This document shows positions 4,765 through 38,457 of a stretch of DNA of 64,000 nucleotides, in pieces. The number at the start of each line of letters is the position of its first letter. Position 1 is the first letter of the stretch. Both the position numbers and the translations under genes were made by a program. Under the pieces are notes generated by a model. It saw only the letters and a program-made list of their open reading frames with translations. It did not search any database and was not told the origin of the DNA. The DNA comes from Diphasiastrum complanatum (Eukaryota > Streptophyta > Lycopodiopsida > Lycopodiales > Lycopodiaceae): positions 85,433,878 through 85,497,877 of the forward strand of contig CM055092.1 in assembly GCA_029204225.1 (NCBI GenBank). Reading direction: 5' to 3'.

Positions 4765-4776
4765 TGGTATCAGAGC
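4765..4776 (+). other. Copia-1 primer-binding site
   Basis: TGGTATCAGAGC, complementary to the 3' end of plant initiator tRNA-Met, abutting the 5' LTR. Confidence 0.9.
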
Positions 4777-18257: not shown

Positions 18258-18341
18258 GGACTGGTCTAAGTGGAAGGACCCTTACTACAACATTTTTGCG
18301 TCGTCGACGCCTAAGGGTCCTCATCATCGACATGGGGCTTG
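18258..18341 (+). repeat. Element C 5' LTR, first surviving piece
   Basis: Matches C's 3' LTR around 38110-38192 (shared ACCCTTACTACAAC and GCCTAAGGGTCCTC). Bounded on the left by LTR-O and on the right by element A. Confidence 0.85.
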
Positions 18342-19586
18342 TGTAGCGCAGGCATCCCAAAGGGAGCCGGGAACCACGACTTAGCTTCCCAGCCTTCAAC
18401 TCTTGCCATCCGAACCCACTTGACATACAAGCAGCCAACTCGCCAACAACGATCAGACTTAACCAACTTGAAGTTCCAAAAACCAACATTGAGATCCAAC
18501 CTGGCGCCATGCCAGATCGGGGGTCCCGACGTGGGTGACTTCCCTCCAAGCAAGCCGCCCGACATACATCAAACTTAACCAACTCGAAGCTTCGTTACAA
18601 ACGAGTAACATCCATTCCAAGCAAGCGGTCTGACTTACATCAGACTTAACCAACTGAAAGCTTCGTCACGAGCGCTGGAAGCCAACCCGGCGCCACGCCA
18701 GACTGGACAGCCATAAACAGGTAACATCCACCCAAGCAAGCCATTCAACTCAGCCGACAGGTTAGAGCCCGTTCCCCAAGAGCTTAACCCATTCACGTTC
18801 ATGCAAGGAACACTCAGAACCACAAGCCGCGACAGATATGGAAACAACCAGTTCCTGGACCAAATGGTCCCGACAGCATACCGCTGGCGCCACGGACCGA
18901 ATGGTCCCGACGGCATACCGCTGGCGTCCCGGGATACGACCCTCAGCTATGTGCCAAGTTAAAAATTTTGAAAGCGGCCTTACAACTGGCGCTTTTACCG
19001 AACACTGAAACCCAGAAGGTAATCAGAGTCAGTTTGAGGAAAATCCCATTTTATTGATACATCTGAGAAGGTTACATTTCAAGTGTGTGACCGACCCTAG
19101 TCTCCGGGGCGCTAGCATGCCAAGGCGAGAGCCATGACAACATTCCAGCAAGGGAGGCTGAGACTTGGTTGGAGCTCGCCCTGAGTCGCAACTCGCACTC
19201 CCCTATAGTATTGGTGTGATTCGGCACCCCCCCTCATACCAAGCACTCTACCCAAGCTGGTAAAGCACGTTTTTCTCTCTCTAGGATTTTCTCTTTCTAG
19301 AAAGTCATTTTCTCTCTCTAGATTTTATTGATCCCCAGGCTTCCTTTAATCATGCCTAGATCGTGTGAGGTGATTGCACATCGATCTGAGCTTTCTGGAC
19401 TTCGCTAGAACCGATCAAAGATTTTCAGCCATAGGAACTTGGCGCCGGCTGGATTCTGGTCACAGTGGCGCCGGGAGCGGCGCCGGCGCCGATGGCGCCG
19501 GGAGCAGCAGGGGCGCTGCTGGCGCCGGGGACATAGCTGGCGCCGATGGCGCCGGAAGTAAAGCTTGTAAAGGTAGCTTTACAACA
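18342..19586 (-). repeat. Element A 3' LTR
   Basis: 1245 bp. Contains the GGCGCC-rich module near 19440-19555 and TCTCTCTCTAG motifs. Adjoins the element's purine tract (TCCACCCCACCT on the plus strand, 19587-19598). Confidence 0.92.
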
Positions 19587-22220
19587 TCCACCCCACCTTT
19601 ATAAAATCTGATGTCCTCATCAGATGTCAGATTAAAGTAAAGGTGTCTCCCAATTAAAATAACTATACATTTAAGCTACTTGGCACAGTACTCAATTTAC
19701 TGGCCACTTTTTATTAACATTGAAGCTGGCACACCACAAGTCGGAGGCTCAGCTCTTTGTACTGAAAAATTACATAACTTGAAAATATATCTTTGTCTGG
19801 GAAAAGCGTAGATTTGATATCGCTTTCGTAAAACCCGAGAACCTTATTAACTGGTGACAGAGGCCTTTCTTTTGAAATGTTCGCCCCTGTCGCTTCTGAC
19901 TTTCGACTTTGGAACTCCTTTGAGCTCCTGATTTGTCCTTGATGCACTTTGTGTTGAGCTCCCTGAGCTCCAGATTTGTTCAGTTCCGCACAAGTATCAA
20001 GGCTCCCTGAGCCGAAGGATTTATCGTTTGATTGCACACTTTATGGTCCACTTCGTGCCTTGTTGCTTCTGCACCTTGATTTCTCTCCTTGTCCCAGCCT
20101 GATCTTGATACTTTTCCATCTTGGCTCTTTAAGGTAGGCAAAGATTGAGTACTCCGCAATGCACCTCTCACTTAGCTTGGAGTAGCTCTTTGAATCAGCC
20201 CAAATGTAACCATTGACCTCGTGGGAAGCCAAAGGGTCGCACCAGTTTGATCCGCATCCGAACTATCTCTTCGCGTTTGAATGAAGCACCATGTCAGTCG
20301 CGCAAAACTTGACTTTCACAATTCCATCACTGGTCAGTTGCCTCACAGTCAAAACAAGAAGTGTACATCGAGCTTGGCTTCAAGTAGCTCTCTTTGAATC
20401 AGACACATGCACCCATAGTTTGCACTAGTCCGATCTCAACGCGAACTGTCCCTTAGCGTTCGTTCGAAATACCAAGTCTCTCATGCAAGACTCAACTTTC
20501 TCAGTTCCTTCATTGATCAGCTGCCTTACACGTAACACAAGCCAGCGTACTCATATGTTTCCTCATCATTGCTGGTCCAGAGAAAGCCTATAACAAACTT
20601 TCCTTTCCACAACAAAAACTTGTCAACTTATTAGGTCCAAAGTTCGCCAGTTTCCTCGTGTGAGTATGGCTAGGTCACCTTGAATTTGCCCCCATTTTGA
20701 TCAACTTTCATTCAAAATTTGCCCCAAGAGAGAGGTGTGTGTGATAGTTCCCCTCCACTTAATAAATCAGCTGATCGGACTTTAGAGTAGAGTTCTTCGG
20801 ACAAAAAGCCTTTCCAACACTTTGCTTCCCATCTGCTAGGATTATGGCTCGATCCAACTTGTTGACAATCTCTGAAGAGGATCCTAGTCTTTTCCCCTTT
20901 GAGGAAAAACCCAACTGATACTGGATATCACCCATGCTCAGTGAGTTTCAGTTCCGAAGGTGGCCGTCCCAAAATGAAGACCAACTGCTCCATAGAAGAT
21001 CTCCCCTGAAATTGCCCTTTCCAACTTTTGACTTCCTGCTTGCGTCTGGTGGGCGTTGTCGCAAATGAAACTAACCCAAGAAATAGGCTAGCCATCCATC
21101 CTTTGCAAACATTGAGTCGTTTCGTTGTCGTTCACGTGTGAGTACTTGAACTGCAAATCCGCCCCACAGATTCTGTAGTCCTCTTTATTTGATGGTATCA
21201 GCCTTCAAAAGAAAAGGTTCCTTCTCGAGCCATCAGCTCCTTGTATCACAAGCAATCATGCAAACCAGGCAAAGCACGAGTACTAAGACTCACCACGAAT
21301 ACATACAAGTAAGACACTCAGGCAGGTTTACTAACAAGTAACAAAGACAAGGTCCCCCTTTGAGATGGTCCTGCCAACGGACCTTTGCCTGGCCGCGCCC
21401 ATACAAATCGATCACAGAATCAGCCCACATAGGACACCCCTCCAACCATCCGTGCTTTCACCATTAAGCAGCACATTGCCTCAGTCACGCCCCACCACTT
21501 TTTGGTCGATAGCCCTTATAGCTAAACGATCGGCAGCTATCCTTGAATATACCACCCCCGTGGACGCACCCGTGCTTTCACCGTCAGGCAGCACATTGCC
21601 TCAGTAACGCCCCCACCAAATCTAGTCGATAGCCCTTATAGCTAAACGATCGGCAGCGTACCCCCCAATCGTGGACGCACCCGTGCTTTCACCGTTAGGC
21701 AGCACATTGCCTCAGTAACGCCCCCACAAAATTTGGTCGATAGCCCTTATAGCTAAACGAATGGCAGCTATCCTTGAATATACCACCCCCGTGGACGCAC
21801 CCGTGCTTTCACCGTTAGGCAGCACATTGCCTCAGTAACGCCCCCACCAAATTTAGTCGATAGCCCTTATAGCTAAACGATCGGCAGCATACCACCCAAA
21901 TCGTGGACGCACCCGTGCTTTCACCGTTAGGCAGCACATTGCCTCAGTAACGCCCCCACCAAATTTGGTCGATAGCCCTTATAGCTAAACGAACGGTGGT
22001 CATCATGAATATGTCACCCCGCACCCCACAAGGCACAGACCGTGCTTACACCATCCTAATGGCAGCACATTGCCTCATCTGTCCTACGTGCAGACGGCGC
22101 CAGGCCCGAACCGCGGAAACTGACCGTGCTTACACCTCAAGGGCAGCACTTTGACTCATCAAGCCCCCGTCCTGCCAACCACCCCGACCGTGGACGCACC
22201 CGTGCTTACACTGTGGGCAG
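19587..22220 (-). other. Element A internal region, non-coding, proximal part
   Basis: Reverse complement of element B's interior over most of its length. No open frame longer than about 85 codons and none with a recognisable domain. The leader-proximal end (21440-22220) holds the expanded hairpin array. Contiguous with 28087-28179 after removal of the nested copia and one TSD copy. Confidence 0.85.
21440..22020 (-). repeat. Tandem array of ~111/120-bp leader units in element A
   Basis: Five units with the shared core CCGTGCTTTCACC...GGCAGCACATTGCCTC start at 21452, 21572, 21683, 21803 and 21915. Spacings alternate 120, 111, 120, 112, giving a ~231-bp higher-order repeat. Each core contains arms GTGCT and AGCAC able to pair. 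Element B has only one such unit plus one diverged neighbour at the corresponding place, so the array expanded in A. Confidence 0.9.
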
Positions 22221-22504
22221 TGTGAAAAATTGTCAACTAGTAGTATTTTCCTAACTTGAGATTTTGTAGGCCTATGGCCAAATAAAAGTTAGAGATAGGT
22301 TCATACATGTATGTAGAGGCCCAAAGTATGTGTACACTACTTTTGAGGTCACATTAATTAGAGGAGGTCGAGTGTGGAGCTCTTCTATTGGCTCATAATT
22401 TGGTGCATTCCTATTTGACCAAATTTCTAGGTATATGGGTGAATCCTATTGGACCCCAATTTTAGCCTATCATAAGACAAGTGGCCAAGAGGCACTATGG
22501 CTGC

Positions 22505-22512
22505 TATAAATA
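22505..22512 (+). promoter_or_regulatory. TATA box of the intact copia 5' LTR
   Basis: TATAAATA, lying between inverted arms ATGGCT (22497-22502) and AGCCAT (22512-22517). It is the best core promoter candidate for the genomic RNA. The start site would fall about 30 bases downstream, near 22535. The same motif recurs at 27713-27720 in the 3' LTR. Confidence 0.7.
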
Positions 22513-22658
22513 GCCATCTCCACGAGTATGTACACATCTCATTTTCATTCTATTGAATGAATGTTATGCTCTTTGAAGGTCCATCTTCTTCTCTCTCACT
22601 TTTTTGTTCATATCTTGCATTCTAGCCACTAGAATTGTGATTTCTTTGTTGCTATGGC

Positions 22659-22672
22659 TTCACACGTGTGAA
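22659..22672 (+). promoter_or_regulatory. 14-bp palindrome with G-box core in copia LTR
   Basis: TTCACACGTGTGAA is a perfect palindrome with the CACGTG core known to bind plant bZIP and bHLH factors. It lies downstream of the TATA box, so it may be transcribed. Similar CACACGTGTG or CACATGTGTG motifs occur near the 3' ends of copia-1's LTRs and of the LTR at 59500-60127, suggesting conservation across related families. Confidence 0.5.
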
Positions 22673-22873
22673 ATGCAGGTTGTAGGCTCTGAAGTACGGA
22701 CAGGGACAGCAAGTTTCTGTTTGTGGAAGCTTATGATCAGATTTTGATGTTTAGTTGATGTTTAGTATGCTTAACATCACAATTTCTATCATTTTTTCAA
22801 TCTAGATGTGCATAACTTCCATGGCCAAGATCTTTATGAAACTTTAGCATCTTTTGGATCTGAGTTTTTCACA

Positions 22874-22885
22874 TGGTATCAGAGC
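22874..22885 (+). other. Primer-binding site of the intact copia element
   Basis: TGGTATCAGAGC follows the LTR's terminal CA with no spacer; complementary to initiator tRNA-Met. Confidence 0.95.
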
Positions 22886-23482
22886 ATTAGGCGGCCAAAT
22901 GTGCAGGTTTTGCCAGATTTAGAAGAGATTTGTGGGCGAGTTTGCTTTTGTAGCATTCCAATCAAGTTTCTAGCTAAAAATCTTGTTGATTTATGTGTAG
23001 AAATTGGATCTTTGTGATCAAAACATCATTTGTATGCATTTCAATTGAAGTAGGGCGAATTCCCTCTGTACTTATCAGAATAAGGAGACAAAAATTGTTT
23101 TGGAAAGAGGGAGATGCAAGATCCAACAAGATCCTATTAGTTTTCCATTCTAGCATATAGTTTTTTGATTCAATTTCTTGCTTCTTCATGTCAAAAACTT
23201 CAAAATTGATGTAACCCTCTGATTTTCAGTTTGCTGAATGATTCAAGAGTGTATTTCAATCTTAGGAGTGAGGGAAAAGCAAGTATATTGAGGTTTGGTC
23301 TTGGTTTGATCAAGAAATCATAAAACTAGTGGCTAAAATTAAGGAAAAAGTGAGGAAAAGAGAGAAAAAGTAAGGTTTTAGGTTCCAAATCTTTGTGATT
23401 TCTTCTTGTGTTTCATTTGTTGATTCAAGAGAGTGCTTAGTGCATTGGAACAGGTCAAAGATCAGAGATCAATCATTGCAAC

Positions 23483-26400
23483 ATGGCTACAAATGGAGGC
23501 TACATGTTGGAAAGCAATGATAGGCTTACCTCCCTCAACTATTCTACTTGGAAAGTAAGGATGGAGTCTTTGCTTGAGATGAATGAGTTGATGGATATTG
23601 TTGTAGGTGTGGAGGAGAGACCTTTGGCACCTCAAGAACAATTGAGGTATGACAAGAGGGCAAAGAAAGCCCTTCACATGATCAAGATGAATGTGACAAA
23701 TGAGCTTATCAAAGAGGTTGGTAAGTGCACATCATCTAGTGAAGCTTGGGAAGCCTTGAAGAAGGTTTATGAATCCAAGTCTACTTCTAGAGTGTTGACT
23801 TTAAGAAGGCAAATCTTTTCTTGTATGCAAAAGAAGAGTGAGAATGGACATGCTTTTGTTTTGAGAGTTAAAGCATTGAATGATGAGTTAGCATGCATTA
23901 ATGATGGCATAAATAATGAGGAGCTTGTTCAAGTGATTCTCAATGGCTTGTTGGATGATCATGCTAATCTTGTTCAAAGTTATGCTATCCAAAAATGTTT
24001 ACCAAGTGTTGGAGACTTGCAAGAGGTCTTGTTGGCTGAAGAATTCAGGTTGCAAGCAAGAGTGGGAGCATCTTCTACATCTCAAGGAGGAGAAGAGGAG
24101 GCAATGTTCTCTAAAGGCAAGTTCAAGGGCAAAGGTAAAAGCAATTGGTCTAAAGGGCAAGACCAAGGTGAGCACTCTACTTTTGGCAAAAAGAAGGATA
24201 GATCTAAGCTAAAATGTTTCTATTGTGGAGTCAAAGGGCATTTTGCTAGTGATTGTTTTAAGAAAAAGAGGGATCAAGGGGAAAAGCAAACCAATCTAAC
24301 TATTGATGAGGGTGGGGATGAGCTTCTTTCAAATGATGCTTTTGTTATGTCATCTTGCTTGTTGGCTAATCATGGAGACATTGATCCTTGGTGGATTGAT
24401 AGTGGAGCCACTTCTCATATGACATATCATAAAGAGTATTTTTCATCTTTAATGGCATTTGATGGTGATAGGAAGGTAATCTATACCGCAAATGATGGTG
24501 AGTGTGCAATCAAGGGGATTGGCACAATTCCTATTTCACTTTCTACAAATAGGAATATAGAATTGAAAGATGTTTTGCTCATTCCATCCATTACCAAGAA
24601 CTTACTTAGTGTAAGCCAAATGCTTGACAAAGGATTCAAAGTTGAGTTTGATGGTGATGCTTGCTTGATCAAAAAGGGGTGTAGTATCATTGCAAAAGGG
24701 AAAAGGCAAGGGAAATTGTTCAAGCTTGATGCATGTGTTGTTGCTAACCAAGTTGGATGCATGGCAAATGAACAAATGTCAATTCAAGAGGTATGGCATA
24801 AAAGGATGGGACATCTCAACTACAAGGCCTTGGAGGTAATAGCCAAAAAGGAGGTAGTAAGGGGACTTCCCAAGTCTCTTACTTGCTTGAATCATGTTTG
24901 TGAAGAATGTGCTTTGTCTAAATCACATAGATTGCCATATACTAGATCTATATCTAGATCTAAGATGCCTTTTTCTCTCTTGCATTCGGATATTCATGGT
25001 GTTACTACAATTAGCAATGGAGGTGCTAAGATGTATGTAACTTTCATTGATGATTTTAGTAGATTTTGTTGGGTTTATCTACTAAAGAGCAAGGATGAGG
25101 TGTTTGATGTGTTTGTCAAGTTCAAAGTTGCTATTGAGACTCAATTTACAACCAAAATCAAATGCTTGAGGAGCGACAATGGTGGTGAATACATTTCTAA
25201 CAAATTCAAAGCCTTTTGCGATGAGCATGGGATCAAGAGGGAGTACACATGTCCAAGAACACCACAACAAAATGGAGTGGCCGAGAGGAAGAATAGAACC
25301 TTGTGTGAGAGTGCAAAGGCAATGAGATTGAATGCTAATCTTCCTAAACCTTTTTGGAGTGATGCTTTGTTGTGTGCAAATTTCCTATGCAATAGATGGC
25401 CAAGTGTTGTATTGGAAGGAAAAACCCCTTTTGAAGCTTTGTTTGGTACGAAGCCTAATGTCAAGTTTCTAAGAACTTTTGGATGCATTTGCTACTTCAA
25501 CATTACTCTTGATGATAGAACTAAGGAGGATCCATCTTCAAGAAAGGGCATTTTTGTTGGTTATAGTGAAGTAAGCAAAGCATATAGGATTTATGTTCTT
25601 TCAATCAAGAAAGTGTTCACAAGTAGGGATGTCATTTTTGATGAAAGTAACATTCCAAAAGTTGTTTCAAGTGATGATGGTGTTGTTGCAACTAATGTGC
25701 TTGATGACAATGGAGTTGATGACACATTGGATGTGGATGTTGAAGAAGCCTCTTCAAGTCAAATTCCAAGGAGAACTCCAAGGCATAAAGTGAAACCCTC
25801 AAGGCTCACTTATGATGGCAAAGGTAAGCAAGTGGTGGATGGATCCAACTATGCTTTCCTAACTTCTTTTGATGTACCTTCATGTGTAGATGAAGCAAGG
25901 CAAAAAGAGGAATGGATCCAAGCAATGGATCTTGAGTTTGAAGCACTTATGAAGAACAACACATGGAGATTGGTGGAGCTTCCAAAGGGCAAAAGTGCAA
26001 TTGGATGCAAATGGATCTTCAAGGTAAAGACAAATCAAGATGGATCTATCAACAAGTTGAAGGCAAGGTTGGTGGCTAAAGGTTATGCTCAAGAGCATGG
26101 CATTGACTATGAGGAAACCTTTGCACCCGTGGCAAAGATGGTGAGCATAAGAGTAATCATTTCCCTTGCAACTCTTTATGGATGGGATCTTTGGCAATTA
26201 GACATTTCTAATGCTTTCTTGAATGGTGATCTTGAAGAGGAAGTCTACATGGAGCAACCCGAGAGCTATGTTTCTCATAGCAAGCCTAATCATGTGTGTT
26301 TTCTACAAAAAAGTTTGTATGGTCTTAAGCAAGCACCAAGGAGTTGGTATGCTAGGCTTAACTCTTTTCTACTTTCTCAAAACTTCACTATGAGTGAGTA

Positions 26401-27433
26401 TGATCATTCACTTTACTTTAGAATTAGTGCTAATGATGTTACAATCCTTCTAATTTATGTGGATGACATTATTTTAAGTGGAGGGAACAAGGAAGATATA
26501 GAAGATATCAAGAAAGCACTAAAAAAGGAATTTGAAGTGCATGATCTTGGTCTTTTGAGCTATATCTTAGGAATAGAAGTAATTAGAACTTCTCAAATCA
26601 CTTTTATTTCACAAGAGAAGTATGCTATTTCTATTCTCAATAGATTTCATATGGTAGATGCAAATCCTATTGATACACCTATGGAATCACATGTAAAGCT
26701 AACTATAAGAGGTAATGAAAGATCCTTCGAGGACATTACTCTCTATAGGAAGCTAATAGGTTCTCTTATATATCTAACCATCACAAGACCTGATTTATCT
26801 TATTGTGTTGGTAGATTAAGCCAATTCATGCAAGATCCTAGCATAGAACATTGGAAACTAGGAAAGAGGATCTTGAGATACATCTCGGGAACAAAAGATT
26901 TTGGCATTGTTTATAGAGGCTCATCACCTAACTTATTTGGTTTTTCAGATTCAGATTTTGCAGGAGACCTTATGGATAGAAAATCCATAAATGCACATGC
27001 TATTTTCATAGGTGATGGAGCTATCTCATGGATGTCGAAGAAACAAGCAACTATATCACTTTCTTCTAGTGAGGCCGAGTACAAAGCTTTGACATCATGC
27101 ACAAAGGAGATGGTGTGGATCAAGAGGATGATTATGGAGCTTCATTTGCTGGATTTTTCAGAGAGTCCAATCATCTTTTGTGACAACCTTTCAGCCCAAA
27201 GTCTAGCAAGCAATCCGGTTTTCCATGCAAGGAGCAAACATATCGAGGTGGCTTACCATTTTGTGAGAGAACAAGTGTTGGCAAAAGAGATCAAGCTTGA
27301 ACATGTCCCATCAAAGGAATGTGTGGCTGATATCTTTACCAAAGCATTGGGAAAGGACTTATTTTTCAAGCATAGAACAAGTCTTGGTGTACTTTCTAAA
27401 TCTATGCTAAAACTAGTTGAAGAGGGAGTGTGA
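23483..27433 (+). CDS. Copia gag-pol polyprotein, intact, 1316 aa
   Basis: Encodes all proteins for copia retrotransposition. Order: gag (about residues 10-200), CCHC zinc knuckle CFYCGVKGHFASDC at 245-258, aspartic protease WWIDSGATSHM with catalytic D306, pre-integrase starting VWHKRMGH near 438, integrase with D503, D565 and E601 (35 residues between the last two), reverse transcriptase with D907 and YVDD (D994, D995), RNase H with FSDSDFAGD (D1156) and SSSEAEYKAL. The start ATG at 23483 follows a ~600-base leader and matches the start of the relic at 2867. The TGA stop (27431-27433) lies inside the first bases of the 3' LTR, so the purine tract is coding. No frameshift separates gag from pol. 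Every active-site residue I looked for is present. Confidence 0.97.
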   Translation: MATNGGYMLESNDRLTSLNYSTWKVRMESLLEMNELMDIVVGVEERPLAPQEQLRYDKRAKKALHMIKMNVTNELIKEVGKCTSSSEAWEALKKVYESKSTSRVLTLRRQIFSCMQKKSENGHAFVLRVKALNDELACINDGINNEELVQVILNGLLDDHANLVQSYAIQKCLPSVGDLQEVLLAEEFRLQARVGASSTSQGGEEEAMFSKGKFKGKGKSNWSKGQDQGEHSTFGKKKDRSKLKCFYCGVKGHFASDCFKKKRDQGEKQTNLTIDEGGDELLSNDAFVMSSCLLANHGDIDPWWIDSGATSHMTYHKEYFSSLMAFDGDRKVIYTANDGECAIKGIGTIPISLSTNRNIELKDVLLIPSITKNLLSVSQMLDKGFKVEFDGDACLIKKGCSIIAKGKRQGKLFKLDACVVANQVGCMANEQMSIQEVWHKRMGHLNYKALEVIAKKEVVRGLPKSLTCLNHVCEECALSKSHRLPYTRSISRSKMPFSLLHSDIHGVTTISNGGAKMYVTFIDDFSRFCWVYLLKSKDEVFDVFVKFKVAIETQFTTKIKCLRSDNGGEYISNKFKAFCDEHGIKREYTCPRTPQQNGVAERKNRTLCESAKAMRLNANLPKPFWSDALLCANFLCNRWPSVVLEGKTPFEALFGTKPNVKFLRTFGCICYFNITLDDRTKEDPSSRKGIFVGYSEVSKAYRIYVLSIKKVFTSRDVIFDESNIPKVVSSDDGVVATNVLDDNGVDDTLDVDVEEASSSQIPRRTPRHKVKPSRLTYDGKGKQVVDGSNYAFLTSFDVPSCVDEARQKEEWIQAMDLEFEALMKNNTWRLVELPKGKSAIGCKWIFKVKTNQDGSINKLKARLVAKGYAQEHGIDYEETFAPVAKMVSIRVIISLATLYGWDLWQLDISNAFLNGDLEEEVYMEQPESYVSHSKPNHVCFLQKSLYGLKQAPRSWYARLNSFLLSQNFTMSEYDHSLYFRISANDVTILLIYVDDIILSGGNKEDIEDIKKALKKEFEVHDLGLLSYILGIEVIRTSQITFISQEKYAISILNRFHMVDANPIDTPMESHVKLTIRGNERSFEDITLYRKLIGSLIYLTITRPDLSYCVGRLSQFMQDPSIEHWKLGKRILRYISGTKDFGIVYRGSSPNLFGFSDSDFAGDLMDRKSINAHAIFIGDGAISWMSKKQATISLSSSEAEYKALTSCTKEMVWIKRMIMELHLLDFSESPIIFCDNLSAQSLASNPVFHARSKHIEVAYHFVREQVLAKEIKLEHVPSKECVADIFTKALGKDLFFKHRTSLGVLSKSMLKLVEEGV
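27419..27428 (+). other. Polypurine tract of the intact copia element
   Basis: GAAGAGGGAG immediately before the 3' LTR; also translated as the last residues of the polyprotein. Confidence 0.9.
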
Positions 27434-28081
27434 AAAATTGTCAACTAGTAGTATTTTCCTAACTTGAGATTTTGTAGGCCTATGGCCAAATAAAAGTTAG
27501 AGATAGGTTCATACATGTATGTAGAGGCCCAAAGTATGTGTACACTACTTTTGAGGTCACATTAATTAGAGGAGGTCGAGTGTGGAGCTCTTCTATTGGC
27601 TCATAATTTGGTGCATTCCTATTTGACCAAATTTCTAGGTATATGGGTGAATCCTATTGGACCCCAATTTTAGCCTATCATAAGACAAGTGGCCAAGAGG
27701 CACTATGGCTGCTATAAATAGCCATCTCCACGAGTATGTACACATCTCATTTTCATTCTATTGAATGAATGTTATGCTCTTTGAAGGTCCATCTTCTTCT
27801 CTCTCACTTTTTTGTTCATATCTTGCATTCTAGCCACTAGAATTGTGATTTCTTTGTTGCTATGGCTTCACACGTGTGAAATGCAGGTTGTAGGCTCTGA
27901 AGTACGGACAGGGACAGCAAGTTTCTGTTTGTGGAAGCTTATGATCAGATTTTGATGTTTAGTTGATGTTTAGTATGCTTAACATCACAATTTCTATCAT
28001 TTTTTCAATCTAGATGTGCATAACTTCCATGGCCAAGATCTTTATGAAACTTTAGCATCTTTTGGATCTGAGTTTTTCACA
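27429..28081 (+). repeat. 3' LTR of the intact copia element
   Basis: 653 bp, same sequence as 22221-22873 by eye, followed by the second GGCAG. Confidence 0.97.
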
Positions 28082-28086
28082 GGCAG

Positions 28087-28179
28087 CACCTTGCACAACA
28101 GTTGTCTTGATGAACCCCAAACCGTGGCCATTTCCGTGAGATTCGCATAGCTGACCGGCCAGTCGGCTCTGATACCACA
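28087..28179 (-). other. Element A leader next to its PBS
   Basis: Continuation of 22220 after the copia. Holds GCTCTGATACCA (28166-28177), the complement of the tRNA-Met primer site, two bases from the 5' LTR. Its counterpart in B is 30172-30264. The copia insertion falls inside the first leader hairpin. Confidence 0.9.
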
Positions 28180-29424
28180 TGTAGCGCAGGCATCCCAAAG
28201 GGAGCCGGGAACCACGACTTAGCTTCCCAGCCTTCAACTCTTGCCATCCGAACCCACTTGACATACAAGCAGCCAACTCGCCAACAACGATCAGACTTAA
28301 CCAACTTGAAGTTCCAAAAACCAACATTGAGATCCAACCTGGCGCCATGCCAGATCGGGGGTCCCGACGTGGGTGACTTCCCTCCAAGCAAGCCGCCCGA
28401 CATACATCAAACTTAACCAACTCGAAGCTTCGTTACAAACGAGTAACATCCATTCCAAGCAAGCGGTCTGACTTACATCAGACTTAACCAACTGAAAGCT
28501 TCGTCACGAGCGCTGGAAGCCAACCCGGCGCCACGCCAGACTGGACAGCCATAAACAGGTAACATCCACCCAAGCAAGCCATTCAACTCAGCCGACAGGT
28601 TAGAGCCCGTTCCCCAAGAGCTTAACCCATTCACGTTCATGCAAGGAACACTCAGTACCACAAGCCGCGACAGATATGGAAACAACCAGTTCCTGGACCA
28701 AATGGTCCCGACAGCATACCGCTGGCGCCACGGACCGAATGGTCCCGACGGCATACCGCTGGCGTCCCGGGATACGACCCTCAGCTATGTGCCAAGTTAA
28801 AAATTTTGAAAGCGGCCTTACAACTGGCGCTTTTACCGAACACTGAAACCCAGAAGGTAATCAGAGTCAGTTTGAGGAAAATCCCATTTTATTGATACAT
28901 CTGAGAAGGTTACATTTCAAGTGTGTGACCGACCCTAGTCTCCGGGGCGCTAGCATGCCAAGGCGAGAGCCATGACAACATTCCAGCAAGGGAGGCTGAG
29001 ACTTGGTTGGAGCTCGCCCTGAGTCGCAACTCGCACTCCCCTATAGTATTGGTGTGATTCGGCACCCCCCCTCATACCAAGCACTCTACCCAAGCTGGTA
29101 AAGCACGTTTTTCTCTCTCTAGGATTTTCTCTTTCTAGAAAGTCATTTTCTCTCTCTAGATTTTATTGATCCCCAGGCTTCCTTTAATCATGCCTAGATC
29201 GTGTGAGGTGATTGCACATCGATCTGAGCTTTCTGGACTTCGCTAGAACCGATCAAAGATTTTCAGCCATAGGAACTTGGCGCCGGCTGGATTCTGGTCA
29301 CAGTGGCGCCGGGAGCGGCGCCGGCGCCGATGGCGCCGAGAGCAGCAGGGGTGCTGCTGGCGCCGGGGACATAGCTGGCGCCGATGGCGCCGGAAGTAAA
29401 GCTTGTAAAGGTAGCTTTACAACA
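28180..29424 (-). repeat. Element A 5' LTR
   Basis: 1245 bp partner of 18342-19586. Differences noted by eye include A/T near 28654 and two transitions in the GGCGCC module near 29338-29351. Confidence 0.92.
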
Positions 29425-29541
29425 GCTTACCACTATGCCAACTGGTCGGTTTGGCGACCACTATGCCTTGGGTTTCATGTGTGGCTTGTCTTTGCCTTTG
29501 GTTAGCTTTTGGGGACGGATTCTGAGTTGGCTTTCGGGTTG
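29425..29541 (+). repeat. Element C 5' LTR, middle piece between A and B
   Basis: 117 bp matching 38188-38304 of C's 3' LTR (shared CACTATGCCTTGGGTTTCAT). It is the only sequence separating the head-to-head 5' LTRs of A and B. Confidence 0.88.
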
Positions 29542-30171
29542 TGTTGTAAAGCTACCTTTACAAGCTTTACTTGCGGCGCCATCGGCGCCAGCTATGTCCC
29601 CGGCGCCAGCAGCGCCCCTGCTGCTCTCGGCGCCAACGGCGCCGGCGCCGCTCCCGGCGCCACTGTGACCAGAATCCAGCCGGCGCCAAGTTCCTATGGC
29701 TGAAAATCTTTGATCGGTTCTAGCGAAGTCCAGAGAGCTCAGATCGATGTGCAATCACCTCACACGATCTAGGCATGATTAAAGGAAGCCTGGGGATCAA
29801 TAAAGTCCAGTCTGGCGTGGCGCCGGGTTGGCTTCCAGCGCTCGTGACGAAGCTTTCAGTTGGTTAAGTCTGATGTAAGTCAGACCGCTTGCTTGGAATG
29901 GATGTTACTCGTTTGTAACGAAGCTTCGAGTTGGTTAAGTTTGATGTATGTCGGGCGGCTTGCTTGGAGGGAAGTCACCCACGTCGGGACCCCCGATCTG
30001 GCATGGCGCCAGGTTGGATCTCAATGTTGGTTTGCGGAACTTCAAGTTGGTTAAGTCTGATCGTTGTTGGCGAGTTGGCTGCTTGTATGTCAAGTGGGTT
30101 TGGATGGCAATAGTTGAAGGCTGGGAAGCTAAGTCGTGGGTCCCGGCTCCCTTTGGGATGCCTGCGCTACA
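29542..30171 (+). repeat. Element B 5' LTR with 615-bp internal deletion
   Basis: Both ends match the 3' LTR at 32763-34007, but sequence equivalent to 33026-33640 is missing; the junction reads CAATAAA then GTCCAG. The lost part includes the pyrimidine-rich TCTCTCTCTAG block and the AATAAAG region, so transcription from this LTR is probably impaired. Confidence 0.92.
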
Positions 30172-30173
30172 TG

Positions 30174-30185
30174 TGGTATCAGAGC
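30174..30185 (+). other. Element B primer-binding site
   Basis: TGGTATCAGAGC, two bases after the LTR end. Confidence 0.93.
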
Positions 30186-30261
30186 CGACTGGCCGGTCAG
30201 CTATGCGGATCTCACGGAAATGGCCACGGTTTGGGGTTCATCAAGACAACTGTTGTGCAAG

Positions 30262-30647
30262 GTGCTGTCCACAGTGTAAGCACGGGTGCGTCCACGGTCG
30301 GGGTGGTCGGCAGAACGGGGGACTTGATGAGTCAAAGTGCTGCCCTTGAGGTGTAAGCACGGTCAGTTCTCGCGGTTCGGGCCTGGCGCTGTCTGCACGT
30401 AGGGCGGATGAGGCAAAGTGCTGCCTAGGGAGGTGAAAGCACGGTCTGTACCTTGTGGGGTGCGGGGCGACATATTCGAACTGTACGGGTCAACCATTGA
30501 TACAGAGATGCTGCTCGAATTCGGGTGTAAAGCACGGGTGGTTAGCTGCCGGTGCGGGATAGCTGCCGATCGTTTAGCTATAAGGGCTATCGACCAAAAG
30601 GTGGTGGGGCGTGACTGAGGCAATGTGCTGCTTAATGGTGAAAGCAC
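30262..30647 (+). other. Leader hairpin array of element B, five copies
   Basis: Five motifs at 30262-30283, 30337-30360, 30418-30442, 30508-30535 and 30625-30647. Each has a 5' arm GTGCT (ATGCT in the fourth) and a 3' arm AGCAC. Copies two, three and five also have inner arms GCC/GGT or GCT/GGT and a 3-base 3' bulge (GAA or GTA). The pattern is seen directly; that it folds as RNA is inference. Located between PBS and the rest of the interior, as in A and C. Confidence 0.75.
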
Positions 30648-30923
30648 GGATAGTTGGAGGGGTGTCCTATGTGGGCTGATTCTGTGATCGATTTGTATGG
30701 GCGCGGCCAGGCAAAGGTCCGTTGGCAGGACCATCTCAAAGGGGGACCTTGCCTTTGTTACTTGTTAGTAAACATGCCTGAGTGTCTTACTTGTACGTAT
30801 TCGTGGTGAGTCTTAGTACTCGTGCTTTGCCTGGTTTGCATGATTGCTTGTGATACAAGGAGCTGATGGCTCGAGAAGGAACCTTTTCTTTTGAAGGCTG
30901 ATACCATCAAACAAAGAGGACTA

Positions 30924-31428
30924 CAGAATCTGTGGGGCGGATTTGAAGTTCAAGTACTCACACGTGAACGACAACGAAACGACTCAATGTTTGCAAAGGA
31001 TGGATGGCTAGCCTGTTTCTTGGGTTAGTTTCATTTGCGACAACGCCCACCAGACGCAAGCAGGAAGTCAAAAGTTGGAAAGGGCCATTTCAGGGGAGAT
31101 CTTCTATGGAGCAGTTGGTCTTCATTTTGGGACGGCCACCTTCGGAACTGAAACTCACTGAGCATGGGCGATATCCAGAATCTGTGCGGCGGATTTGCAG
31201 TTCAAGTACTCGCACGTGAACGACAACGAAATGACTCAATGTTTGCAAAGGATGGATGACTAGCCTGTTTCTTGGGTTAGTTTCATTTGCGACAACGCCC
31301 ACCAGACGCAAGCAGGAAGTCAAAAAGTTGGAAAGGGCAATTTCAGGGGAGATCTTCTATAGCAGTTGGTCTTCATTTTGGGACGGCCACCTTCGGAACT
31401 GAAACTCACTGAGCATGGGTGATATCCA
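30924..31428 (+). repeat. 252-bp tandem duplication inside element B
   Basis: CAGAATCTGTG starts at 30924 and 31176; the two copies run in parallel to about 31428 with scattered substitutions. Element A has a single copy of this region near 20930-21180. Confidence 0.88.
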
Positions 31429-32762
31429 GTATCAGTTGGGTTTTTCCTCAAAGGGGAAAAGACTAGGATCCTCTTCAGAGATTGGCAACAAGTTGGATCG
31501 AGCCATAATCCTAGCCGATGGAAAGCAAAGTGTTGGAAAGGCTTTTTGTCCGAAGAACTCTACTCTAAAGTCCGATCAGCTGATTTATTAAGTGGAGGGG
31601 AACTATCACACACACCTCTCTCTTGGGGCAAATTTTGAATTAAAGTTGATCAAAATGGGGGCAAATTCAAGGTGACCTAGCCATACTCACACGAGGAGAC
31701 TGGCGAACTTTGGACCTAATAAGTTGACAAGTTTTTGTTGTGGAAAGGAAAGTTTGTTATAGGCTTTCTCTGGACCAGCAATGATGAGGAAACATATGAG
31801 TACGCTGGCTTGTGTTACGTGTAAGGCAGCTGATCAATGAAGGAACTGTGAAAGTTGAGTCTTGCATGAGAGACTCGGTATTTCGAACGGACGCTAAGGG
31901 ACAGTTCGCGTTGAGATCGGATTAGTGCAAACTCTGGGTGCATGTTTCTGATTCAAAGAGAGCTACTTGAAGCCAAGCTCGATGTACACTTCTTGTTTTG
32001 ACTGTGAGACAACTAACCAGTGATGGAATTGTGAAAGTCAAATTTTGCGCGACGGACATGGTGCTTCAAACAAACGCGAAGAGATAGTTCGGATGCGGAT
32101 CAAACTGGTGCGACACTTTGGCTTTCCACGAGGTCAATGGTTACATTTGGGCTGATTCAAAGAGCTACTTCAAGCTAAGTGAGAGGTGCATTGCGGAGTA
32201 CTCAATCTTTGCCTACCTTAAAGAGCCAAGATGGAAAAGTATCAAGATCAGGCTTGGACAAGGAGAGAAATCAAGGTGCAGAAGCAACAAGGCACGGAGT
32301 GGACCATAAAGTGGGCAATCAAACGATAAATCCTTCGGCTCAGGGAGCCTTGATACCTGTGCGGAACTGAACAAACCTGGAGCTCAGGGAGCTCAACACA
32401 AAGTGCATCAAGGACAAATCAGGAGCTCAAAGGAGTTCCAAAGTCGAAAGTCAGAAGCGACAGGGGCGAACATTTCAAAGAAAGGCCTCTGTCACCAATT
32501 AATAAGGTTCTCGGGTTTTACGAAAGCGATATCAAATCTACGCTTTTCCCAGACAAAGATATATTTTCAAGTTATGTAATTTTTCAGTACAAAGAGCTGA
32601 GCCTCCGACTTGTGGTGTGCCAGCTTCAATGTTAATAAAAAGTGGCCAGTAAATTGAGTACTGTGCCTAGTAGCTTAAATGTATAGTCATTTTAATTGGG
32701 AGACACCTTTACTTTAATCTGACATCTGATGAGGACATCAGATTTTATAAAGGTGGGGTGGA

Positions 32763-34007
32763 TGTTGTAAAGCTACCTTTACAAGCTTTACTTGCGGCGC
32801 CATCGGCGCCAGCTATGTCCCCGGCGCCAGCAGCGCCCCTGCTGCTCCCGGCGCCAACGGCGCCGGCGCCGCTCCCGGCGCCACTGTGACCAGAATCCAG
32901 CCGGCGCCAAGTTCCTATGGCTGAAAATCTTTGATCGGTTCTAGCGAAGTCCAGAGAGCTCAGATCGATGTGCAATCACCTCACACGATCTAGGCATGAT
33001 TAAAGGAAGCCTGGGGATCAATAAAATCTAGAGAGAGAAAATGACTTTCTAGAAAGAGAAAATCCTAGAGAGAGAAAAACGTGCTTTACCAGCTTGGGTA
33101 GAGTGCTTGGTATGAGGGGGGGTGCCGAATCACACCAATACTATAGGGGAGTGCGGGTTGCGACTCAGGGCGAGCTCCAACCAAGTCTCAGTCTCCCTTG
33201 CTGGAATGTTGTCATGGCTCTCGCCTTGGCATGCTAGCGCCCCGGAGACTAGGGTCGGTCACACACTTGAAATGTAACCTTCTCAGATTTATCAATAAAG
33301 TGGGATTTTCCTCAAACTGACTCTGATTACCTTCTGGGTTTCAGTGTTCGGTAAAAGCGCCAGTTGTAAGGCCGCTTTCAAAATTTTTAACTTGGCACAT
33401 AGCTGAGGGTCGTATCTCGGGACGCCAGCGGTATGCCGTCGGGACCATTCGGTCCGTGGCGCCAGCGGTATGCTGTCAGGACCATTTGGTCCAGGAACTG
33501 GTTGTTTCCATATCTGTCGCGGCTTGTGGTTCTGAGTGTTCCTTGCATGAACGTGAATGGGTTAAGCTCTTGGGGAACGGGCTCTAACCTGTCGGCTGAG
33601 TTGGATGGCTTGCTTGGGTGGATGTTACCTGTTTATGGCTGTCCAGTCTGGCGTGGCGCCAGGTTGGCTTCCAGCGCTCGTGACGAAGCTTTCAGTTGGT
33701 TAAGTCTGATGTAAGTCAGACCGCTTGCTTGGAATGGATGTTACTCGTTTGTAACGAAGCTTCGAGTTGGTTAAGTTTGATGTATGTCGGGCGGCTTGCT
33801 TGGAGGGAAGTCACCCACGTCGGGACCCCCGATCTGGCATGGCGCCAGGTTGGATCTCAATGTTGGTTTGCGGAACTTCAAGTTGGTTAAGTCTGATCGT
33901 TGTTGGCGAGTTGGCTGCTTGTATGTCAAGTGGGTTTGGATGGCAATAGTTGAAGGCTGGGAAGCTAAGTCGTGGGTCCCGGCTCCCTTTGGGATGCCTG
34001 CGCTACA
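32763..34007 (+). repeat. Element B 3' LTR, complete 1245 bp
   Basis: TGTTGTAAAGC to TGCGCTACA-type termini. Contains eight GGCGCC hexamers between 32796 and 32908, a CAATAAAA near 33019, a CAATAAAG near 33295 and TCTAGAGAGAG blocks. Best reference copy of the family. Confidence 0.95.
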
Positions 34008-34165
34008 GGTTGGTTGGGATTCCAGTTTTCTTAAGTTTGAATGGTTAAGCTTGTTACATTTCTGAGTTGGCTTTTACGTAAGTGCATGATGAATGAATGT
34101 TAGACTTAAGCGCGTGTTGGAGAAACCGCTCAAGTCCCAGCACCCTTTGAGGCGCCGGCGCAACA
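34008..34165 (+). repeat. Element C 5' LTR, 3' end
   Basis: Matches the last ~150 bp of 37540-38457, ending GGCGCAACA, two bases before the PBS. Confidence 0.88.
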
Positions 34166-34255
34166 TGTGGTATCAGAGCCGACTAGCCGGTCAGCTACGC
34201 AAGTCTCACAGGGATGGCTACGTTTTGAGATTTGTCAAGACAATCGTTGCGCAAG

Positions 34256-34607
34256 GTGCTGCCCACAGTGTAAACATGGGTGTGTCCATGGTCGGGGTGG
34301 TCGGCAGAACGGGGGACTTGATGAGACAAGGTGCTGCCCTTCAGGTGTAAGCACGGTCATTTCCCGCCGTTCAGGCCTGGCGCCGTCTGCACGTAGGACA
34401 GATAAGAAAATGTGCTGCCATTAGGTTGGTGAAAGCACGGTCTGTGCCTTGTGGGATGCATACAGAGATGCTACTCGGATTCGGGTGTAAAACACGGGTA
34501 GTTAGTTACCGGTGCGGGATAGCTGCCGATCGTTTAGCTATAAGGGCTATCGACCAAAAAGTGGTGAGGCGTGATTGAGGCAATGTGTTGCTTAATGGTG
34601 AAAGCAC
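34256..34607 (+). other. Leader hairpin array of element C, five copies
   Basis: Motifs at 34256-34277, 34331-34354, 34412-34438, 34468-34494 and 34585-34607 align one to one with those of element B. The fifth has GTGTT against AGCAC, a change that keeps pairing through G-U. The first has lost its 3' arm (AACAT). Confidence 0.7.
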
Positions 34608-34963: not shown

Positions 34964-37173
34964 ATGGAGGACCACCTTGATGAGTTACAAGAATTGATGG
35001 ACGGAGAGGAGCAGGCTCGAGAATACGGCTCCCGCATGCATTGAGATGGCACCAGGTCCAAGTCAAGAAAGAAAGAGCGTATGCACTCCACAGTGGCGCC
35101 TCTCCAAGAAGAGATGGGTGGCCCTTCTGAACCTACACCAAGAGACGAACCCTTGCCAGAGGTGCAACAAGACCTCTTTGAAGTGAAGATGCGGCAATAC
35201 TTATCAAGTGCAATGACGGTTATGCTTAGCGAGGTGAAGAAGGAGAGAGAAACAGAAAGAAAAGAATGGCAAACATCCCTGCGAACCATGAACCTTACTC
35301 AATTCAACCTCGCTAGAGAAATGAGAGACAGGCTAACATAGCTCGAAGCCAGGTTTGAAGAGTTGGAGGCAACTAGAGGGAATGCAGTGGCGCCTCCTCC
35401 ACAGATACCAAGAGAACCACGAGCACAAAACACAGAAGGCCCAAAGAAGACTGTCAAAGTAAAACCACCTACTTTCAAAGGAGAGCGTGACATTCGAATT
35501 GTGGAAGATTGGTTGTTTCACATGGACCATTAATTCTGTCTGATGAACACTCCTGAGGAAGAAAGAACGGACTTGGCATTAGCATATTTTGAGGGCTACA
35601 CCACAAATTGGTACCGGATGACAAGAATGCATTTCCAGACATGGGACGCATTCAAAACCGCATTACGAGAGGAGTTCATACCGAAGAATTCACACATGAG
35701 ATTGAGGACAAAATTATCAGGGCTCAAGCAGAAAGGGTCATTGCGAGAGTACCTCAATAAATTCAGACAGAGTGTATGGGTTATTGAAGATATGTCCGAG
35801 GCAGACAAAACTCATTACCTCTTGTCTGGAATGCAATCTTGGACCTGGCGTGCAATAGACAGCTACATGCCCCATGATTTCAATTCAACTATCGGGCGGC
35901 TGAAATGGTTTGTGAGTATGAGAGCACATTGGCACCAGCTGCTCCCTCAACCTCAACAAGAGTATTTAGTGGATCCAGACCGAGTCCGAGCTTCTTTTCA
36001 AGGGGGGACTCAGCTTCAAATGGCAACCAAGCCTCGAGTAGCGTGAACAAATTCCCAACAAAAATAGGGTTTGGCAACCAAGGCAACAATTGAGGGAACA
36101 CGTTCCAGAGAAGAAACAATGTTGGACCTTCAGCTAGTCACAGCGACAGCTCACCAACAGTGGGCTGTTCCATGCGCCGCTTCAACTGTCATCAGCAAGG
36201 TCACTCTTGGAGGTCATGCCCCAAACCATTGAACAAGCAAATCATGGCTGCCATTGAAGGATTTGATAGAATGGAGAGAGAGGCATTTGATCAAGAAGAT
36301 GGTGAACAGGATGACGAAGAGGACCTAGAAACGGATTTGATGGAGTCTGACCTGAATGCCTCACAACAGGTAGGGGCACTTGCGGCGTATCGTGAACATC
36401 TCATGGCGACTCCTGCGAGAGGATCAAAGTTATTGTACCTGAAAGGCTGTATTCAAGGCAAGATCATTTACTTCATGGTAGACTTGGGAGCGTCACATAA
36501 CTACTTGTCAGAAAAACTGACAGGGGAATTGGACATCCAATGTGAAAAAAATGTGACTCCTATTTGTGTGGAGACTATGAAAGGTACAATGACCACTTGC
36601 AGATTGGCAACCACCTTACCAATCTCCCTGGGAACCTGGAAGAATCGACTAACGTTCACAATCTTGAAGATGGATGCCTTCAACGCTATTTTGGGATTAA
36701 GCTAGTTTAACGAACATGTGGTGGCCTTCTTGGCAAAAGGGGTTAAGCTTGTGTTATTATATAATGGCAGGAGACCTTGTGTCGTCAGAGCTGTGCCAGG
36801 GGACCAACTAAAAAATAACGACACAAATGAACCTAAGCCAACCATCCCTCCCAATCTCATTCACCTCTTTAACGAAGGGCAGCCAACAGTGACAAACCAG
36901 CTGACACGGGACCAAATGGAGCCAACATTGCCTACAGTTTGTACATCAAAGGTGAATTCAAGTGCCGATGCAGAGCTCAAGGAGCTCAACTTGTGTGACC
37001 AAGCGAAAGCTCACCTCTTTAACAAAGGACATCTAGCAGTGACAGACCAGCTGACGCGAGGTCGAATGGAGCCAACATTGCCTGCAGCTTCTACATTAGA
37101 GGTGAATCTAAGTGCCGATGCAGAGCTCAAGGAGCTCAACTTGGGCGACCAAACAAAAAATCTAGAGTCCTAG
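34964..37173 (+). pseudogene. Element C gag-protease gene, broken
   Basis: ATG at 34964 (MEDHLDELQELMDGEEQ) opens a frame interrupted by TGA at 35042, TAG at about 35339 and TAA at about 35532, with a frameshift near 35900. Gag core at 35543-35900 (LALAYFEGYTTNWY, FIPKNSHMRLRTKL, GSLREYLNKFRQSV) matches the Retrotrans_gag fold of Ty3/gypsy elements. The zinc knuckle near 36180-36222 reads FNCHQQGHSWRSC, lacking the first cysteine (R). The retropepsin-like motif near 36480 is DLGASHN instead of the usual D-S/T-G-A, so the catalytic triad is altered. NAILGLS near 36690 is the second protease signature. Its tail contains two 50-residue repeats. Confidence 0.85.
36862..37161 (+). repeat. Two 150-bp in-frame repeats at the end of element C's ORF
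   Basis: CACCTCTTTAAC starts at 36862 and 37012. Each unit encodes HLFN-G, VT-QLTR, MEPTLP and ADAELKELNL. The repeat keeps the frame, so selection on the protein or a recent duplication is likely. Function unknown. Confidence 0.88.
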
Positions 37174-37539
37174 GGGACTCATTCAGACGTGCGACGAAAA
37201 CGACATATCTGAGGCTTAAGGGATCCGTAAGTACCTTTTTCTTTCATGTTAATAAAGTAAGCCACATTTCTCATCGAGGAGTGAGCTTCAGTCTAATGTC
37301 TAAGTGCAGCAACTTTACATAGGTTTTACGTAAGTGAACTAGATCCACACTTTTCCTGTGCTGGGTGCAAACACAATATTTTTACTTCTCTTTACAATTG
37401 GTCTCCTTTGGTCGGTGAATCAAGCCCGTGCCCTTGTATATGTGAATAAAGTCTGGCCGGTGAATTAAGCCCGTGCCATGAGTCTTAGGTTCTAGTTTGG
37501 CCCTAATGAGGACATCAGCTTTCTCAAACGAGGGGAGGA

Positions 37540-38457
37540 TGTTGTAAAGCTGAATCGGGTGCACCCATCGTGCCCTGTAAGACTCTAAGGAGTGACACTC
37601 TCTAAGGTCCCAGAGCAAGTTAGAACGTCAAGGATTGAGCCTCCGACCTGTGGTGAGCCAGTCAAGTAGTCACAAGTCATGAGCTAGCTCTGGAGCTCGA
37701 GTCATGGCCTAGTCAGGAAAGCAAGTTGATTCTGCCGCTGGGACCACTCCCGGGACCCATGTACGGGAGCCAGACTGATTCTGCCAGGCTTGCCAGGCTT
37801 AATCAGCAAAATAAAAACTAAGTCCTGAAAAGCGTGCTTTACCAGAAAGCACTATGTTTCAAACCAGAGGGGGTGCGCCAAATCATAGCAGAACTATAGG
37901 GGGAGTCCGGCAGACAGAAACTTGGGCAGCTCAACCAGCGCCAGGAATCCAGTCGCCAGGTCTCAGCTCCCTCTACCAGCACGAGCCAGGCAAATGCACA
38001 GCACGTGTTGGTGGCCCCGAGACTGGTCAGTCTATGTATGAATGCAACCTCTTCCAAATCTAATAAAGTTGATCCTTGGGGATGATTACCATTTCGGTTT
38101 TGCCTCCGAGACTGGTCCAAGTGGAAGGACCCTTACTACAACCTTTTTGCGTCGTCGGCGCCTAAGGGTCCTCGTCATCGACGTGGGACTTGCCGCTATG
38201 CCAATTGGTCAGTTTGGTGACCACTATGCCTTGGGTTTCATGTGTGGCTTGTCTTTGCCTTTGGTTACCTTTTGGGGATGAATTCTGAGTTGGCTTTCGG
38301 GTTGGTTGGGATTCCAGTTTTCTTAAGTCTGAATGGTTAAGCTTGTTACGTTTCTGAGTTGGCTTTTATATAAGTGCATGATGGATGAATGTTAGACTTA
38401 AGCGCGTGTTGGGGAAACCGCTCAAGTCCCAGCGCCCTTTGAGGTGCCGGCACAACA
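37540..38457 (+). repeat. Element C 3' LTR, complete, 918 bp
   Basis: Starts TGTTGTAAAGCTGAA (first 12 bases as in the A/B LTR) and ends GGCACAACA. Internal blocks such as GTGCTTTACCAG and ACTATAGGGG are shared with the A/B LTR, showing common ancestry. Used here as the uninterrupted reference for the invaded 5' LTR. Confidence 0.9.

Follow-up and report, generated by a model that had tools for sequence, protein, structure and literature searches.

A 64,000-nucleotide (nt) stretch of the genome of Diphasiastrum complanatum (Lycopodiaceae; contig CM055092.1, positions 85,433,878 to 85,497,877; here called the window) contains three long terminal repeat (LTR) retrotransposons, A, B, and C, whose leaders carry an array of one repeated hairpin motif 3' of the primer-binding site (PBS). 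In the genome, this array heads three kinds of element: G elements, which combine gag with a protease-like domain; P elements, which encode protease, reverse transcriptase (RT), RNase H, integrase, and a chromodomain without gag; and noncoding A/B elements. The array, its copy number, its presence in all three kinds, the split coding, and a difference in protease motif between G and P are direct observations. The array is most likely a shared cis-acting RNA signal, serving packaging and/or dimerization, of a two-part LTR retrotransposon with noncoding followers; judging from sequence, we give this reading an even chance.

The leader array and its carriers

The motif, GTGCTGCYN{0,20}GGTGWAAGCAC in element sense, had 12 exact matches in the window (seven in A, three in B, and two in C) and none across 100 dinucleotide shuffles of it. 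Genome-wide (1,744,706,496 bases in 5176 contigs), there were 5350 + 5495 = 10,845 exact matches, and the reversed motif, used as a control, had none in the same 1.74-Gb genome. The usual arrangement is five units 3' of the PBS; in a P leader, with the second PBS base as the origin of the count, they start at +89, +164, +245, +335, and +452. The loop between the fixed arms ranges from 3 to 8 nt, and flanking TGAGGCAA or TGAGTCAA, and CGG, are common to several units. Other window elements with the same PBS (at 4765, 14426, 22874, and 42393) gave no exact match to the motif. The sequence-only reading that first described the motif in A, B, and C was borne out on its presence, with imperfect copies also found by reading. 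Its eight copies in A exist, the first of them split by a copia insertion, and so do its five in C, two of which (units 1 and 4) are damaged (Table 1). Its term "non-autonomous" is correct for C, which has a gag and protease-like frame and lacks a pol frame.

No Rfam 15 family matched in the window at gathering score, and with a relaxed threshold the top score over positions 30174 to 30780 was 14.2 bits, compared to the 45 required. The kink-turn and other named RNA motifs considered gave no fit. Exact matches in IMG/VR (23 stretches, each with a single match, loops of 0 to 20 nt, and no array) were taken as chance.

Twenty array places were picked for variety, not at random, from the first listed on contig C1. 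Their tails were of A/B type in 10 cases, pol type in 4, and gag type in 3; 3 were unclassed. G and P elements have nearly the same LTRs and leader; A/B elements have the same array under other LTRs. For coding capacity, the best 150 of 8487 first-look gag candidates and the best 148 of 50323 RT candidates were scored. A 746-amino-acid (aa) stop-free frame recurred in 33 of the 150 gag matches and an 1165-aa stop-free frame in 54 of the 148 RT matches (both counted by eye; matches on small or unplaced contigs may repeat a copy). In the G element L062, the open 746-aa frame contains Retrotrans_gag, RVP_2, and a zinc knuckle, and the LTRs are identical over the 605 nt seen. An LTR starts about 370 nt after this frame in 19 of 20 G stretches, and the twentieth runs into LTR letters. 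The stretches upstream of six of 20 gag matches (L068, L070, L071, L078, L081, and L083) contained no array pattern; in the two of these that were printed, L068 and L083, other sequence occupies the expected leader site.

All 19 P stretches fetched showed the right-arm pattern of the array (units 2 to 5 in 18, units 3 to 5 in L092). In each, the RT-containing frame opens at the same place, its first ATG lying about 712 nt after the PBS start, and none has gag upstream of the protease: the leader runs straight into the protease frame. That frame is 1165 aa long in 18 of these young stretches and 1158 aa in L102. Two old P copies, L053 and L060, still show, in separate pieces, protease, RT, RNase H, integrase, and chromodomain, and both carry a C-type 3' LTR; L053 also has part of the 5' LTR. 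Domain scans of L060, in three frames, found RVT_1 (8e-32), RT_RNaseH (2.5e-23), Integrase_H2C2 (4.9e-23), SH3_Tf2-1 (8.2e-19), and Chromo (1.1e-9), with rve (8.5e-7) below its cutoff. This order in the old copy, in which a chromodomain comes after RT, RNase H, and integrase, marks the P elements as putative Ty3/gypsy chromoviruses.

Separate coding and shared termini of G and P

The active-site motif of the protease-like domain is DLG in element C and in L062 and L067. It was DLG in 17 of another 20 G stretches, with 3 unread; for older G copies, with 70 to 79% gag identity, the count is 7 of 10, with 3 unread. The motif of the P protease is DSG in 19 of 19 stretches. Aspartic proteases carry D[ST]G, and we infer that the G domain is inactive. 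The P protease of L057 and the G protease of L062 are 41.5% identical over 142 aa, and other pairs are 37 to 47% identical. The LTRs of two G copies differ from those of one P copy by only 19 and 25 mismatches in about 918 positions, plus a 52-nt indel, and the G and P leaders are 98 to 99% alike over columns 1 to 540 of the alignment, with no fixed difference before column 551. With diverged proteases but a shared leader and LTRs, G and P do not appear to have arisen recently by deletion from a single parent; their coding regions appear to have been kept apart while their termini stayed in common.

This bears on the most probable alternative, in which an autonomous gag-pol element still drives the family and G and P arose from it by ordinary deletion. 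We regard it as unlikely, though worth keeping in view. Deletion would not readily account for exact 746- and 1165-aa frames recurring in 33 and 54 scored matches, for proteases that differ at 58% of sites beside leaders so alike, or for the age of the division: older G copies already have DLG, and gag is already missing from L053, an old P copy. The alternative gains from the extent of the scoring, which covered only the best 150 gag and 148 RT candidates; a complete gag-pol helper could be among the rest, and this also counts against a two-part element. Same-strand G and P matches within 5 kb of each other occurred only on contig C22, with a full LTR between them (by eye, in the best-scored lists). 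There (L107, C22:29220600-29223200), a G 3' LTR adjoins a P leader missing its PBS as well as units 1 and 2, so that one G and one P stand in tandem.

Conservation and folding of the array

Leader differences were counted over 18 P, 14 G, and 5 A/B rows and were called fixed when held by at least 4 of the 5 A/B rows and at least 85% of the others. Rows P92, P98, and G119 were left out of the alignment, window C was left out of the count, and 7 of 11 early stretches were used (X32, X37, and X49, of A/B type, and X41, of G type, were left out). Fixed differences between A/B and G plus P numbered 16 in columns 1 to 88, 2 in the 391 columns of the array (89 to 479), and 11 in the next 61 columns (480 to 540). 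Both differences within the array lie in loops, those of units 2 and 3, and the closest flanking ones lie 6 columns before unit 1 and 5 columns after unit 5. Beyond column 600, A/B identity to G/P is below 0.53. The proposal of a conserved leader signal thus stands insofar as the array, almost without fixed difference between sampled elements that differ in LTRs and body, heads gag-only, pol-only, and noncoding elements; its other half, that the signal is a paired RNA, gained little from the results below. Protein coding was rejected as the cause of conservation, since A/B and G/P do not have the same frame after the leader ATG at +46.

The unit-3 loop exists in 8- and 6-nt forms, both present in A/B, G, and P, with the 8-nt form found in P only in L053. 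This distribution fits exchange between co-packaged RNAs, in which pieces of array would move between kinds; in retroviruses, such exchange requires two RNAs per particle. DNA conversion is an alternative source. In quick trees, loop-form changes numbered one on the array tree versus four on the flank tree, and A/B changes numbered five versus one. The loop-form split had support of 64/65 in a careful tree, from which 7 of 56 rows were dropped for lack of a readable unit-3 loop, and the conflict between array and flank trees is suggestive only.

The hairpin had been described as two-tiered, with a 3-base bulge. Folded alone, units 3, 4, and 5 of the P copy L088 take this form; unit 2 differs in where the bulge lies but retains the outer stem, and unit 1 forms only that stem (z-scores for units 1 to 5, -0.08, -1.55, -1.66, -1.72, and -1.73). 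Mean outer-pair probability in seven whole leaders ranged from 0.03 to 0.98, and in whole-leader minimum-free-energy structures the hairpins appear only in part. Mismatches are the rule in two units: 68 of 72 copies of unit 4 have one in the outer stem (A/C), and 74 of 77 copies of unit 1 have one in the inner stem (C/A). Retroviral dimerization loops hold palindromes. In one P copy (P88), palindromes of 8, 6, and 8 nt lie in the tops of hairpins 2, 3, and 4; elsewhere among the units and kinds tried, palindromes were 4 nt or absent, except for 6 nt in B unit 3.

A scan allowing up to 5 mismatches found 417 hairpins in 73 of 77 stretches versus 47 in reversed sequence, and some of the 417 are therefore chance. 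Among their classed units, single-side arm changes kept pairing in 93 cases and broke it in 84. Double arm changes numbered 17 versus 4.1 expected: 8 pairing versus 1.58 expected (5-fold) and 9 nonpairing versus about 2.5 (3.6-fold). An excess of both types is expected because old copies carry more changes, and the test is low-powered because the arms hardly vary. Covariation, which had been proposed as the check on the hairpins, accordingly did not favor them: the arms are nearly invariant, and double changes that keep pairing and those that break it are both in excess. The pairing of GTGTT with AGCAC in C unit 5, earlier taken as a difference that keeps the stem, is not evidence for it, because C-to-T is the commonest left-arm change (41 cases over all pairs). 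Copy L036/L057 has GTGTT..AACAC in units 4 and 5, a form with seven matches genome-wide; it looks compensated yet fits C-to-T and G-to-A decay.

Several of these observations weigh against a packaging or dimerization signal in a two-part element. At counts of this size, the excess of pairing double changes cannot be told apart from that of nonpairing ones, and no specific covariation emerged. Palindromes were not found in unit 1, in A/B unit 2, in A-type loops, or in C unit 3. Between the sampled A/B and G/P rows, the spacers of the block match its arms in conservation, with no fixed difference, so that its identity need not reflect selection on hairpins and could instead stem from the block having recently been exchanged as a whole. 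All five A/B rows are young and have the 6-nt loop form; the older A/B copies, with 8-nt loops, are among the stretches left out and among the A-type arrays, which lie outside the alignment. A careful array tree built without the unit-3 loop required three A/B changes, and an approximately unbiased test of A/B as one clade was borderline (P = 0.0505). Finally, the chromodomain and integrase were seen in old L060 and, by similarity, in L053 only, not in the young 1165-aa frame; by length, the end of that frame lies as far from the RT start as does the chromodomain frame of L060.

Conserved spacers are also what would be seen if the array had no function and were a stretch of leader prone to tandem repetition that recombination had spread among elements. 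That A-type arrays expand in 111- to 120-nt steps, and that older copies decay mainly by C-to-T and G-to-A, agrees with this explanation, but units 1 to 5 keep their arms and order in all three kinds despite differing spacers, and the limits of the block with nearly no fixed differences fall close to the outermost hairpins, within 6 columns at its start and within 5 at its end. We consider an absence of function improbable.

Marginally less probable is a role in translation, whereby the array would allow ribosomes to traverse a long leader rich in upstream ATGs (by shunting, internal entry, or reinitiation) or would lie in a removed intron. Both G and P need their ATG reached, one P copy has 12 ATGs ahead of it in a leader of 712 nt, and the three leaders inspected, one per kind, have an upstream frame of 36 codons starting at hairpin 4 (+335 in L088 and L109 and +334 in window B); however, A and B keep the array without having a frame of 150 aa or more (the inserted copia apart), and the ATG at +46 opens a frame of 45 codons in the P and G copies and of 19 in B. 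Equally doubtful is action as DNA, with the units as repeated host-factor binding sites (an enhancer or insulator): many near-identical sites shortly after the PBS, arms conserved as sequence and not through covariation, and flanking motifs that recur at several units would suit it, but loop variation of 3 to 8 nt between fixed arms would rotate half-sites, and an asymmetric 3-nt bulge fits RNA better.

Structure of elements A, B, and C

A (minus strand) and B (plus strand) belong to one family, with LTRs of about 1247 nt. The A LTR pair is 99.76% identical (3 mismatches in 1245), and the B pair has 1 mismatch in 367 and 3 in 269; with so few mismatches, both are young insertions. No frame of 150 aa or more was found in the body of A (the inserted copia apart) or of B. 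The copia element has LTRs that are 99.8% identical and a 5-bp duplication, CTGCC. B is inserted into the C 5' LTR, pieces of which lie on both sides (29426-29546 and 34008-34165). The 5' end of A adjoins the C 5' LTR at 29424, and the first part of that LTR was not found on the far side of A in the window. C has LTRs of about 918 nt; the zinc knuckle upstream of its protease-like domain lacks the first Cys in this copy, and no pol frame was seen between the protease-like piece and the 3' LTR.

Adjoining A on the minus strand, whole and partial A/B LTRs lie side by side in a tandem cluster (15855-19586). The B body contains a tandem duplication (30924-31433; 252-nt step, 95.8% identical). Between units 4 and 5, B (30558-30595) and C (34518-34555) share an identical stretch, GATAGCTGCCGATCGTTTAGCTATAAGGGCTATCGACC, with inverted GATAGC/GCTATC. 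The sequence TGATGAGGACATCAG, directly before the polypurine tract, is common to all three kinds, with one change in window C.

Table 1. Positions of elements, array units, and associated features
Feature	Position	Strand	Remarks
Element A	18342-29424	-	5' LTR 29424-28180, leader, copia 22221-28081, body, 3' LTR 19586-18342
Copia element inside A hairpin 1	about 22221-28081	+	Open reading frame 23441-27433, open 1330-aa frame
A last unit, unit 5 type	21452-21474	-	
A tandem unit	21572-21594	-	
A tandem unit	21683-21705	-	
A tandem unit	21803-21825	-	
A tandem unit	21915-21937	-	
A unit 3	22042-22068	-	Loop ATTAGGAT
A unit 2	22126-22149	-	
A unit 1, right part	22202-22215	-	Severed by copia insertion
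A unit 1, left arm	28082-28089	-	Beyond copia insertion
Element B	29542-34008	+	5' LTR 29542-30171 with internal deletion; 3' LTR 32763-34008
B PBS	30174-30185	+	
B unit 1	30262-30283	+	Inner C-to-T; GTC opposite AGT
B unit 2	30337-30360	+	Exact match
B unit 3	30418-30442	+	6-nt loop TAGGGA
B unit 4	30508-30535	+	ATGCT opposite AGCAC; bulge with one extra A
B unit 5	30625-30647	+	Exact match
C PBS	34168-34179	+	
C unit 1	34256-34277	+	Right arm damaged, AAACAT end: one C/A mismatch, one wobble
C unit 2	34331-34354	+	Exact match
C unit 3	34412-34438	+	8-nt loop ATTAGGTT
C unit 4	34468-34495	+	ATGCT..AACAC, two mismatches
C unit 5	34585-34607	+	GTGTT opposite AGCAC
C gag piece	35534-36043	+	Retrotrans_gag 7.4e-12
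C protease-like domain	36094-36702	+	RVP_2 1.9e-7, motif DLG
C 3' LTR	37540-38457	+	
TGATGAGGACATCAG stretch	32710-32762, 37500-37539 (window)		Also L122, L124, L126, and 19 of L127-L146

A proposed two-part retrotransposon and known systems

If the array is a packaging or dimerization signal, the G element would supply Gag and the P element would supply protease, RT, RNase H, and integrase with its chromodomain; Gag, through its zinc knuckle, or Pol would recognize the repeated hairpins; and G, P, and A/B RNAs would be gathered in one particle, with the noncoding elements riding along on the same array. In this scheme we infer that the arms form pairs in the cell and are bound by Gag or Pol, that the RNAs are co-packaged, and that neither G nor P can do without the other. 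The family may even be a segmented LTR retrotransposon, with gag and pol on two mutually dependent high-copy elements and the array as the common region joining their RNAs and those of the followers, an idea that we advance tentatively, at somewhat less than an even chance. The segments of divided virus genomes likewise share end sequences, as G, P, and the followers share the array.

Known systems resemble parts of this arrangement. In the BARE1/BARE2 pair, the partner element is autonomous. BARE2 of barley is unable to make its own Gag yet is packaged, in line with conserved dimerization and packaging signals (PMC3735527). The likeness lies in an element without its own Gag, whose packaging is here proposed from sequence. 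Unlike in BARE1/BARE2, gag and pol here lie on two elements, each without the other, and the signal would be a five-unit hairpin array. TR-GAG elements have LTRs and gag without pol, and LARDs have a long, noncoding interior with LTRs. L062, L067, and window C, with LTRs and a gag domain and no pol, fit the first definition, and the A/B elements, with LTRs and a long interior without a frame of 150 aa or more, fit the second; G differs from TR-GAG in that it has a pol-only partner whose LTRs and leader nearly match its own, and in the DLG of every copy read.

Retroviral psi and dimerization initiation sites are leader hairpins after the PBS, some with palindromic tops. The array, a set of candidate hairpins in the same place with palindromic tops in some of the units tried, may resemble them, and it differs in repeating one motif five to eight times, without an Rfam family match. 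Foamy virus Pol is made apart from Gag and starts with protease, as P Pol does, unfused to Gag, but P Pol is encoded by a separate element and not by a spliced RNA of the same one. The Drosophila gypsy leader holds Su(Hw) sites that form an insulator; these too are repeated sites shortly after the PBS, whereas the array units have inverted arms, variable loops, and an asymmetric bulge. None of the titles and abstract openings that searches of open-access papers listed describes an LTR retrotransposon split into two parts, with gag-only and pol-only elements as a stable pair, or a leader array of this kind. The nearest known kinds are BARE2, TR-GAG, and LARD elements.

One short array across three differently coding kinds of element is a candidate cis signal that is directly testable. 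If the proposed reading is true, a stable division of gag and pol over two elements, one with an altered protease motif, would represent an unusual retrotransposon life style.

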